Shown in pieces: positions 50,208-52,223 of a stretch of 64,000 bases of DNA. This DNA comes from Demequina capsici (GTDB taxonomy: Bacteria; Actinomycetota; Actinomycetes; Actinomycetales; Demequinaceae): assembly GCF_032102965.1 (NCBI RefSeq), contig NZ_CP134880.1:620001-684000 (forward strand), in the 5' to 3' direction. The translations under genes were made by a program, and so were the position numbers. Within the stretch, counting starts at the first letter, position 1; the number at the start of each line of letters is the position of its first letter. The notes below the pieces were generated by a model. It searched no databases and was not told the origin of the DNA. It saw nothing but the letters and a program-made list of their open reading frames with translations.

Positions 50208-51278
50208 ATGGCCCACGAACCTGAGCCCGACGAGCCGGAGGTCGACACCTCCACGCTCGCACTTCGCAAGGGCGAGGTGATGGCACAGGCCAAGGACGCC
50301 GCCGCGCGCGGCAGACGTATCAAGGCGTGGTGGGACGGCACGTCCTGGGCCAAGGGCCTCAGGCGGTTCTCGCTCCAGAACGGCGTGGTCCTCTCCGGCG
50401 GAATCGCCTACTTCACCCTCGCCTCGGTCGCCGCGGGCGTCGTCGTGGCGACCACGCTCGCCACCGTGTTCCTCGCGGGCAACACGGAGCTGCGCAGCTC
50501 GCTCGTCGACTATCTGGCGGGCGCCGTGCCCGGACTCATCGACACGGGTGGCACGGCCGGCCTGATCACCGCCGACGACCTCGGCTCGGGCAGCGCGACC
50601 ACCATCGCGGGCGTGGTCGGCCTCATCTCCTTCTTCATCCTGATCAACACGGCCACGCGCTTCATCAGAGGCCTGCGCACGAGCATCAGGACCATGCTCG
50701 GCGAGGAGTACGCGTCGCCTGTGGTCGGCAAGCTCAAGGACCTCGCCGCGCTCGTGGGACTGCTGCTCATCGCGCTCGTCGGGCTCACCATCCAGGTGGT
50801 GGCGACGACCGCCGCCCAGTGGTTCGCCGGGCTGATCGATGTCGCGATGCCGTGGTGGGGGGTGCGCCTCATCGGCGTCGGCGCCGGCGTGATCGCGGAC
50901 ATGCTCTACGTCGCGCTCGCACTGATGGTGCTGGGAGGCGCGCGGTGGTCGCTCCGGCTCGTGTGGATCATCCTGGTGGCGGCGCTGTCGATCGGCGTGC
51001 TGCGCATCGGCGTCAGCTACGTGGTGAGCGGCGCGACCGAGAGCGCGGTCCTCGTGCCGTTCGCTGCCGCGATCACGCTCCTGGTGTTCGTCGACTACGT
51101 GAACAGGATCATCCTGATGTGCGCTGCCTGGCTCGGCGCGCATCACGTGGAGTCCGAGGTGGGGCAGGCCCACCATGCGGATATGGAGGACGATGCATGG
51201 GAGGTTGTCGAGGGGCGACGCGCGGGTCGGATCGGCGTCACGACGGCTCGGGCGGCCGTGAAGCGCCCGGTGTCGTAG
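50208..51278 (+). CDS. YihY/YhjD/BrkB-family membrane protein
   Basis: 356-residue protein with about six transmembrane helices. A charged N-terminal tail (about 1-60) precedes FSLQNGVVLSGGIAYFTLAS, the family hallmark, and the C-terminus is again cytoplasmic and charged. Members are linked to lipid or lipopolysaccharide export (YhjD) but the function is not established here. Strong GGGGGGAGGG lies before the ATG. Confidence 0.88.
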   Translation: MAHEPEPDEPEVDTSTLALRKGEVMAQAKDAAARGRRIKAWWDGTSWAKGLRRFSLQNGVVLSGGIAYFTLASVAAGVVVATTLATVFLAGNTELRSSLVDYLAGAVPGLIDTGGTAGLITADDLGSGSATTIAGVVGLISFFILINTATRFIRGLRTSIRTMLGEEYASPVVGKLKDLAALVGLLLIALVGLTIQVVATTAAQWFAGLIDVAMPWWGVRLIGVGAGVIADMLYVALALMVLGGARWSLRLVWIILVAALSIGVLRIGVSYVVSGATESAVLVPFAAAITLLVFVDYVNRIILMCAAWLGAHHVESEVGQAHHADMEDDAWEVVEGRRAGRIGVTTARAAVKRPVS

Positions 51279-51291
51279 GCGCGCCCGCCCC

Positions 51292-51426
51292 TCCGGGTGA
51301 ACCAGTGTCGGTTCTGGCGGCTCGCCGCTTGCGAGGGGTGGCTCAGTGACGCGGCAGAGCGCCGGGCGGCACACGGTCACCCGTCAGATGCAGTGACCTC
51401 TCAGAACCGACACTGGTTCACCCGGA
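51292..51426. repeat. 135-bp element with perfect 25-bp terminal inverted repeats
   Basis: The left end begins TCCGGGTGAACCAGTGTCGG (51292-51316) and its exact reverse complement is at 51402-51426, separated by 85 bp of non-coding sequence. It fills the gap between the convergent YihY-like and sdhB genes. It could be a MITE-like or intergenic repeat element, or a large bidirectional terminator. No clear target-site duplication flanks it. Confidence 0.85.
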
Positions 51427-51455
51427 TCGGGGACGGGTGCGGGTGAGGGTGACGG

Positions 51456-52223
51456 TCAGATCTCGCCGGTGTTGAGAGCCTTCTTCACCTCGGAGATCGC
51501 CTTTGTCACCTCGATGCCGCGCGGGCACGCCTCGGTGCAGTTGAACGCCGTGCGGCACTTCCACACGCCGGCCTTGTCGTTGAGGATCTCCAGGCGATCC
51601 CACTGGCCCTCGTCGCGCGAGTCGAAGATGAACCGGTGCGCGCCCACGATCGCCTGGGGGCCGAAGAACTGGCCGTCGGTCCAGAACACCGGGCACGCGG
51701 AGGTGCAGGCCGCGCACATGATGCACTTGGTCGTGTCGTCGTAGCGCTCGCGCTCCGCGGGGGTCTGCAGGCGCTCGCGCTCCGGCGCGGGGCCGCTCGT
51801 CATGAGGAACGGCATGATCTCGCGGTAGGAGGCGAAGAACGGCTCCATGTCCACGATCAGGTCCTTCTCCACCGGCAACCCCTTGATCGGCTCGATCAGG
51901 ATCGGCTTCGCCGGGTTGAGGTCCTTGAGCAGCGTCTTGCAGGCCAGACGGTTGCGGGCGTTGATCCGCATCGCGTCTGATCCGCACACGCCGTGCGCGC
52001 AGGAGCGACGGAACGCGAGCGAGCCGTCCACGTCCCACTTGACCTTGTGCAGGGCGTCGAGCACACGGTCGGTGGCGTGGGCCTGGATCCGGAACTCCTC
52101 CCAGTACTCCTCGCCTGCGCCGTGCTCGGAGGTGCCCTCCGGGTTCATGCGGCGGATGCGCAGCGTCACCTCGAAGGAGGGGACCTCGCCTGCGGGCGTC
52201 GATGCTTCGGCGGTCGCGGTCAT
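51456..52223 (-). CDS. sdhB: succinate dehydrogenase iron-sulfur subunit
   Basis: 255-residue subunit carrying [2Fe-2S], [4Fe-4S] and [3Fe-4S] centres from flavin to quinone. CAHGVCGSDAMRIN with following C (2Fe-2S), CIMCAACTSACPVFW (4Fe-4S) and CTEACPRGIEV (3Fe-4S) are intact. The ATG at 52223 is preceded by AGGAGGAAG. It lies 13 bp after sdhA in the sdhCDAB operon. Confidence 0.96.
   Translation of the reverse strand: MTATAEASTPAGEVPSFEVTLRIRRMNPEGTSEHGAGEEYWEEFRIQAHATDRVLDALHKVKWDVDGSLAFRRSCAHGVCGSDAMRINARNRLACKTLLKDLNPAKPILIEPIKGLPVEKDLIVDMEPFFASYREIMPFLMTSGPAPERERLQTPAERERYDDTTKCIMCAACTSACPVFWTDGQFFGPQAIVGAHRFIFDSRDEGQWDRLEILNDKAGVWKCRTAFNCTEACPRGIEVTKAISEVKKALNTGEI

Follow-up and report, generated by a model that had tools for sequence, protein, structure and literature searches.

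MIRU are intergenic tandem direct repeats of tens of base pairs that lie near stop codons and vary in copy number. By description only, they resemble the Demequina arrays reported here, although MIRU units are longer than the Demequina unit and occur mainly between co-directional genes. In eukaryotes, roadblock terminators of the TTF-I and Reb1 type consist of repeated, oriented boxes 3' of genes which, bound by protein, stop the polymerase; as these belong to another domain of life, the likeness is an analogy only. Rho-dependent terminators with rut sites share with the Demequina arrays a C-rich, G-poor transcript past the stop codon, and we know of no rut site with a phased direct-repeat array downstream.

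REP and BIME sequences are described, in the accessible parts of two reports (PMC2817692, PMC3733652), as intergenic repeats near gene ends that are found singly or as dimers, most of these head-to-head, and chiefly where genes are unidirectional or convergent, that bind IHF, gyrase and Pol I and are said to aid Rho-dependent termination; REP prediction is treated in PMC12306157. As portrayed there, the GTAG and CGTC families are, like the Demequina arrays, dispersed, intergenic, near 3' ends and found as head-to-head dimers. REPs are, however, small palindromic hairpins, the GTAG types being linked to RAYT, whereas the Demequina unit consists of two direct 17-bp boxes and is non-palindromic. 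Marine Beggiatoaceae carry many intergenic sets of the 7-bp direct repeat TAACTGA, for which the available text proposes a regulatory, post-transcriptional role (PMC4679880); the comparison with our arrays is by description only. A literature search, covering titles and the beginnings of abstracts and with subscription papers mostly beyond reach, did not find the family named; the one paper retrieved on Demequina itself was on ecology.

The element between yihY and sdhB

The window analyzed here is a stretch of 64,000 nucleotides from Demequina capsici, and its genome, designated G000, is one contig of 3.08 Mb. Between two convergent genes of the window, yihY/BrkB on the plus strand (stop codon ending at 51278) and sdhB on the minus strand (stop codon 51456-51458), lies an element of 135 bp (51292-51426) which, by direct reading, starts with TCCGGGTGAACCAGTGTCGGTTCTG and closes with its exact 25-bp reverse complement. 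Perfect 25-bp terminal inverted repeats had been reported in the first-pass annotation, and both arms are confirmed at their positions (Table 1); a repeat search extended the inverted repeat to 61-nt arms that are 75% complementary with 13 nt between them. The only exact copies of the 12-mer TCCGGGTGAACC in the window are the two ends of the element. sdhB was matched in all 44 searched genomes of the genus.

The element resolves into two head-to-head units of the family described below, and its perfect 25-bp inverted repeat probably arises because one box is present twice in opposite orientation, not from transposon ends. Among 40 pairs examined, the outer boxes are identical over 17 of 17 positions in the window pair alone, an exact arm match being unusual in the family. 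The reading that we favor, with a little less than even confidence, is that a phased array for a putative DNA-binding protein, together with a rut-like tract, constitutes a non-hairpin terminator or insulator, of which two head-to-head modules would be present here.

Table 1. Features of the element and its flanking genes, in window positions
Feature	Positions	Strand	Basis or remark
yihY/BrkB-family membrane protein gene, 3' end toward left unit	50208-51278	+	PF03631, E 3e-17
C-rich stretch, yihY stop codon to left unit	51279-51293	+	15 nt, C 0.67, G 0.27
Left 25-bp arm, perfect inverted repeat	51292-51316		exact reverse complement of 51402-51426
Left 58-bp unit	51294-51351	-	box/spacing scan; model R1, E 3.9e-12
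Left unit outer box	51294-51310	-	exact match to CGACACTNNNTNACCCG
Left unit spacer	51311-51334	-	box/spacing scan
Left unit inner box, degenerate	51335-51351	-	three mismatches
Gap separating both head-to-head units, 15 bp	51352-51366
Right 58-bp unit	51367-51424	+	box/spacing scan; model R1, E 5.7e-16
Right unit inner box	51367-51383	+	two mismatches
Right unit spacer	51384-51407	+	box/spacing scan
Right 25-bp arm, perfect inverted repeat	51402-51426		exact reverse complement of 51292-51316
Right unit outer box	51408-51424	+	exact match to CGACACTNNNTNACCCG
C-rich, G-poor, rut-like stretch, sdhB stop codon to right unit	51425-51455	-	31 nt, C 0.61, G 0.13
sdhB (succinate dehydrogenase iron-sulfur subunit), 3' end toward right unit	51456-52223	-	Fer2_3 + Fer4 domains

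Phased boxes and their occurrence in Demequina

The unit measures 58 bp and comprises a 17-bp box, a 24-bp spacer and a second 17-bp box in direct orientation, giving a box period of 41 bp, approximately four turns of DNA; in the loci examined, arrays contain two to seven boxes. In G000 the box is CGACACTNNNTNACCCG and the spacer is near TCAGATGCAGCGACCTCTCAGAAC, and other Demequina species retain the 17-24-17 frame with different box letters, e.g. CGACAACCATCTACCCATTC. For the analysis, genomes were assigned to clade 1 (G000, G027, G003, G063, G011 and G028) and clade 2 (G021, G019, G030, G061, G022, G005, G010 and G025, with G016 and G028 added later). Same-strand spacings in fetched loci, many of which had been selected by the 41-bp pattern, were 41 bp in 39 cases and 39 bp in one in G000, 41 bp in 48 cases and 40 and 42 bp in one each in G027, and 41 bp in 16 cases and 42 bp in one in the other genomes; further spacings were multiples of 41 (82 and 123) plus scattered single values. 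In clade 2, for which an ungapped 58-position model had supplied the units, 41 bp accounted for 25 of the 29 spacings of up to 130 bp and four other values occurred once each, and all nine spacings of a fourth box type (CGTCGCTSAGCTCCCCG and variants) were 41 bp. When boxes were sought in G000 irrespective of spacing, two mismatches being tolerated, 124 matches were obtained, compared to 53 for the reversed control, and the same arrays were recovered. Each of the 18 exact boxes in G000 has a mate 41 bp away, with two of the mates carrying three mismatches.

Boxes within one unit resemble each other more than boxes of different units. For the middle five variable letters, agreement in G000 was 3.33 of 5 within units versus 2.39 between units, a difference reached in none of 2000 shuffles, and in 61 of 2000 when two-box arrays were taken alone; in G027 the effect was slight (17 of 2000 shuffles, and 318 of 2000 for two-box arrays alone). 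Higher within-unit agreement fits local copying. Most G027 arrays carry a different, CGACGSTGAGTGACCCG-like box (L157-L168), and some mix CGACGSTGAGTGACCCG-like and CGACACT-type boxes in one 41-bp frame, e.g. G027:C16:168388-168527. The unrelated spacers typical of CRISPR were not observed, the mean shared information being 0.95 bits per position in G000 and 0.59 in G027, and a CRISPR-like array was rejected because the spacers share sequence within a genome and are not unique.

Copy counting showed that each half of the window element belongs to a genome-wide family with 37 units in G000, in line with the intergenic repeat family, often between convergent genes, that had been suspected at the outset. 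A search of G000 returned 66 matches at E<=10, of which the strong ones fell at about a dozen places, and wider searches of this genome yielded 27 arrays at about 21 places. Allowing one mismatch, the box-N24-box pattern occurred 37 times in G000, 45 in G027, seven in G003, five in G063, three in G011 and once in G028, 98 in total, with no match in the remaining 38 of the 44 genus genomes; the reversed pattern, used as control, matched twice over all 44. A sequence-only model of the G000 units was positive in 25 of the 44 genomes at E<=0.05. The genus-wide model, built from 38 rows of which one was out of register, was positive in 23 at E<=1e-4, with a maximum of 62 matches in G019, and the 21 of 44 Demequina genomes that gave no match at this threshold count against the favored reading. 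Outside Demequina, the GTDB pattern search and a sample of the order revealed isolated single matches only: the exact pattern was present in 21 stretches of the GTDB collection, of which two Demequina species contributed 13 and other organisms eight isolated ones, and among 297 genomes of the order, with only 18 candidates scored per genome, 14 Demequina were positive at E<=0.001 and two other genomes had one weak match each.

The 37 units of G000 found with the one-mismatch pattern all lie within 0.43-2.40 Mb. The 1.1 Mb surrounding dnaA (at 2,974,953), i.e. 2.40-3.08 Mb and 0-0.43 Mb, holds none of them.

Gene context, outer flank and position between species

Gene context was taken from our own gene predictions, which are uncertain in the 4-kb pieces used for clade 2. 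A first count in clade 1 placed 62 of 69 arrays toward a gene 3' end, including 29 of 36 among co-directional genes. Because arrays between convergent genes face 3' ends by definition, only co-directional arrays are informative on orientation. Solo arrays of this kind pointed toward the gene 3' end in 27 of 33 cases in clade 1 and 20 of 30 in clade 2, summing to 47 of 63, with a pair definition that differs slightly between the clades; the other 16 of 63 pointed toward a gene start, which indicates a bias rather than an absolute rule and counts against the favored reading. For the 151 clade 2 arrays with genes on both sides, the neighboring genes were convergent in 77 cases, co-directional in 64 and divergent in 10. 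The 10 divergent cases also count against the favored reading, as do the clade 2 paired arrays between co-directional genes, 17 each way. The genes facing arrays in G000 include SdhB and, by the look of their translations, ValS, ClpX, PcrA, ArgG, GatB and MnmA, which are ordinary genes. One array common to two species, at 1950817 in G000 (L039:9777-9875) and 322404 in G003 (L177), has an unusual orientation: in G000 the TAG stop of the preceding gene is immediately followed by the inner box, and the outer end of the array points toward the start of a small gene, presumably redox-like.

The segment between the stop codon and the outer box contained more C than G in 48 of 60 cases in clade 1, compared to 195 of 331 control gene ends (rank test, P 8e-8), and in 77 of 83 cases in clade 2, compared to 32 of 56 control ends (P 3e-12), the segments being 10-50 nt long at arrays and 35-50 nt in controls. 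Arrays facing gene starts are also C-rich at the flank (11 of 12 and 5 of 5 in clade 2, 5 of 7 in clade 1), and the tract may therefore belong to the module, not to the transcript end, a point against the favored reading. The outer tract is C-rich, G-poor and rut-like, a feature of Rho-dependent terminators, though one that gene-start arrays share. The module as observed consists of phased 17-bp boxes in intergenic position with a C-rich tract on the outside.

Opposed pairs separated by less than 400 bp were head-to-head in 49 cases (7 + 33 + 9 new) and tail-to-tail in none. The commonest gap, 14-16 bp, was found in eleven of 40 pairs and one of the nine new ones, and flanking-protein comparison assigned these twelve to ten independent gene pairs; the gap sequences of pairs look unrelated. 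Gap lengths follow a period of approximately 10 bp (P = 0.003, 27 unique values, after scanning periods), and the gap phase of nine held-out pairs agrees weakly with it (p about 0.08), a weakness that counts against the favored reading. Arm matching in the 40 pairs was no better than with arms shuffled within genomes, a comparison to which genomes with a single pair contribute nothing. Most clade 1 arrays, 55 of 69, are not in a close opposed pair. In two places of G000, opposed arrays flank genes in a cargo-like manner, one a single GNAT acetyltransferase gene at 608626-609144 (L031:8627-9145) and the other a DUF559-type endonuclease-like gene at about 1969484-1970440 (L033:9484-10439), where DUF559 scored above and the MTES_1575 endonuclease just under the Pfam cut-off. 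Three enclosed genes were scanned in all: one GNAT, one DUF559-type and one without a Pfam match.

Arrays tend to recur at the same positions in different species. By our count, 15 of 27 G000 arrays adjoin a gene whose homologue adjoins an array in another species, and an argG-like gene has an array alongside in five species. At yihY-sdhB, arrays are present at both ends in G000 and G027, both G027 units having a different box, and at yihY in G063; no unit was seen at this locus in G003 and G011. We further compared one convergent gene pair of G025 with ten relatives, of which eight were alignable; in the other two, G022 and G061, the two sides of the locus could not be connected. G010, G016 and G019 contain a unit of the same type as G025, and G005, G024 and G030 one of the fourth box type at the same place; G033 had no recognisable unit, visual inspection of G001 suggested a degenerate one at best, and no clean junction was readable in either. 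Between G024 and G025, the flanks are 93-97% identical while the boxes differ in the same 41-bp frame and at the same place. Box letters change between species, and the layout and often the genomic position persist.

Transcript folding and alternative readings

The strongest structural rival is a degenerate transposon family, in which the arrays would derive from a MITE-like, non-autonomous element with two transposase-binding boxes per end, head-to-head pairs representing whole copies, solo arrays broken ones, and some copies carrying cargo. Some transposons do have multi-site ends, and this reading, which we consider unlikely, accounts for the dispersal of copies, for the exclusively head-to-head arrangement of close pairs (49 to 0), seen also between co-directional genes, and for the GNAT and DUF559-type genes enclosed by opposed arrays in G000; the window also contains the terminal inverted repeat expected of a MITE, perfect over 25 bp. 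However, a check of the flanks for target duplication, which should accompany the mobile MITE considered in the first-pass annotation, detected none around 48 of the 49 head-to-head pairs (one lacked a flank), as the mean best flanking direct repeat scored 0.25 compared to 0.29 after shuffling, based on exact 4-12-bp repeats offset symmetrically by 0-8. Most clade 1 arrays (55 of 69) are outside close opposed pairs. Across several species, many arrays adjoin homologous genes. At the one locus compared in detail, a unit occupies the same place in six of eight alignable relatives, in three of them with another box type, and no clean junction could be read in the two without a recognisable unit (G001 and G033). 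A search for the Y1/REP-type transposase family (PF01797) found no member in the 44 Demequina genomes, the control being positive in 5 of 14 known genomes. A MITE with terminal inverted repeats is disfavored by the lack of target duplication, the solo arrays and the positions shared between species, and the mobile part of the earlier proposal is not supported, whereas its idea of a shared terminator is still plausible. Its premise that a single copy would denote a terminator and multiple copies a mobile element proved a false choice, since the family is multi-copy yet looks largely position-bound.

A still less probable reading, to which we attach little weight, is an RNA element or intrinsic terminator in which the inverted pair forms a hairpin in both convergent transcripts. 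Positions 51280-51440 fold as RNA with -116.1 kcal/mol (z = -9.6, none of 200 shuffles as low), and other pairs are low in raw folding energy too, as expected of any opposed copies. In contrast, 51 solo arrays folded in the sense direction had a mean z of -0.22, with three below -2, which is at chance as a group, and adding the C-rich tract took the values only slightly below chance: segments joining 45 nt of flank to 22 nt of array had a mean z of -0.53 in a set of 69 arrays (7% below -2) and of -0.44 in a set of 151 (9%). A large hairpin requires an opposed pair, the pair in the window has no U-run beside either arm, arms matched no better than shuffled ones, and the exact 41-nt period has no reason in RNA. 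On the solo arrays, the U-run and the arms, an intrinsic terminator is disfavored. The strongest functional rival, also improbable in our estimate, holds that the arrays are sites for a chromosome-organizing or supercoiling protein (cf. BIME-2 with gyrase) that are intergenic where tolerated. Helical phasing and bidirectional pairs suit such a role, as do the many arrays between convergent genes (77 of 151 in clade 2), where positive supercoils meet, and the confinement of the G000 units to a region distant from dnaA. It leaves unexplained the 3'-end bias in co-directional regions (47 of 63) and the C-rich outer flank.

Two further candidates were rejected or disfavored. Rfam returned no family above the gathering cut-off, the best overlap with the element scoring 27.7 bits where 124 were required. 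REP/RAYT fits poorly, as the unit is not a palindromic stem-loop, judged by the solo arrays, and the 44 genomes have no Y1 member.

Termination at protein-bound arrays, the favored reading, draws on two lines of argument. The strict period, the helical gaps, the orientation and the lack of a fold point to a protein on double-stranded DNA. Termination, most simply of the Rho type with a roadblock, is suggested by the C-rich tract together with the 3'-end bias and, in clade 2, the scarcity of hairpins. In clade 2, strong hairpins occurred at 15% of 107 array-bearing ends versus 34% of 91 other ends (P = 0.007). In clade 1 the proportions were similar (34% of 53 versus 29% of 285 elsewhere, P = 0.13), and the outer flank alone (80 nt) had a mean z of -1.08, with 20% below -2; this parity, the arrays located beyond hairpins and the three folded solo arrays count against the favored reading. 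Some gene ends have both an array and a hairpin, as at about 832700-832780 in G000 (L032:10700-10780), where a GC-rich hairpin is located between stop codon and array.

In the proposed sequence of events, a putative sequence-specific protein would bind the boxes from a single face of the DNA duplex, turning the array into a roadblock or insulator where the transcription unit ends. The C-rich, G-poor tract past the stop codon, once transcribed, could serve as a rut-like loading site, and Rho would be the likeliest factor to release RNA polymerase halted at the array. Where two arrays oppose each other, as in the window, transcription from each of the convergent genes would end ahead of a collision. 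Extended to the genus, a more doubtful proposal is that Demequina ends many transcription units not by a hairpin but by roadblock at phased 17-24-17 arrays bound by a fast-evolving putative protein or its paralogues, such that sites at fixed gene ends are rewritten among close relatives at constant geometry and binding specificity co-evolves with dozens of sites in each genome.

If termination at such arrays is correct, about half of the sampled Demequina species would mark gene ends by phased protein-binding arrays and not by hairpins, a way of ending or insulating transcripts without apparent description in the literature searched. Protein-DNA co-evolution could then be tested directly, as geometry and position stay fixed and the sequence shifts. 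Finding a perfect inverted repeat where two genes converge does not by itself imply a mobile element or a hairpin terminator.

A second intergenic repeat of about 78 bp, with ends GCAACCGGCGTAC and GTACGCCGGTTGC and often an internal GCATCGTSCCTGGT motif, was observed in the same genus (L185-L187, L190-L214). Its exact ends, for which the other 39 of the 44 genus genomes gave no match, occur 27 times in G030, ten times in G022, nine times in G005 and once each in G016 and G020.
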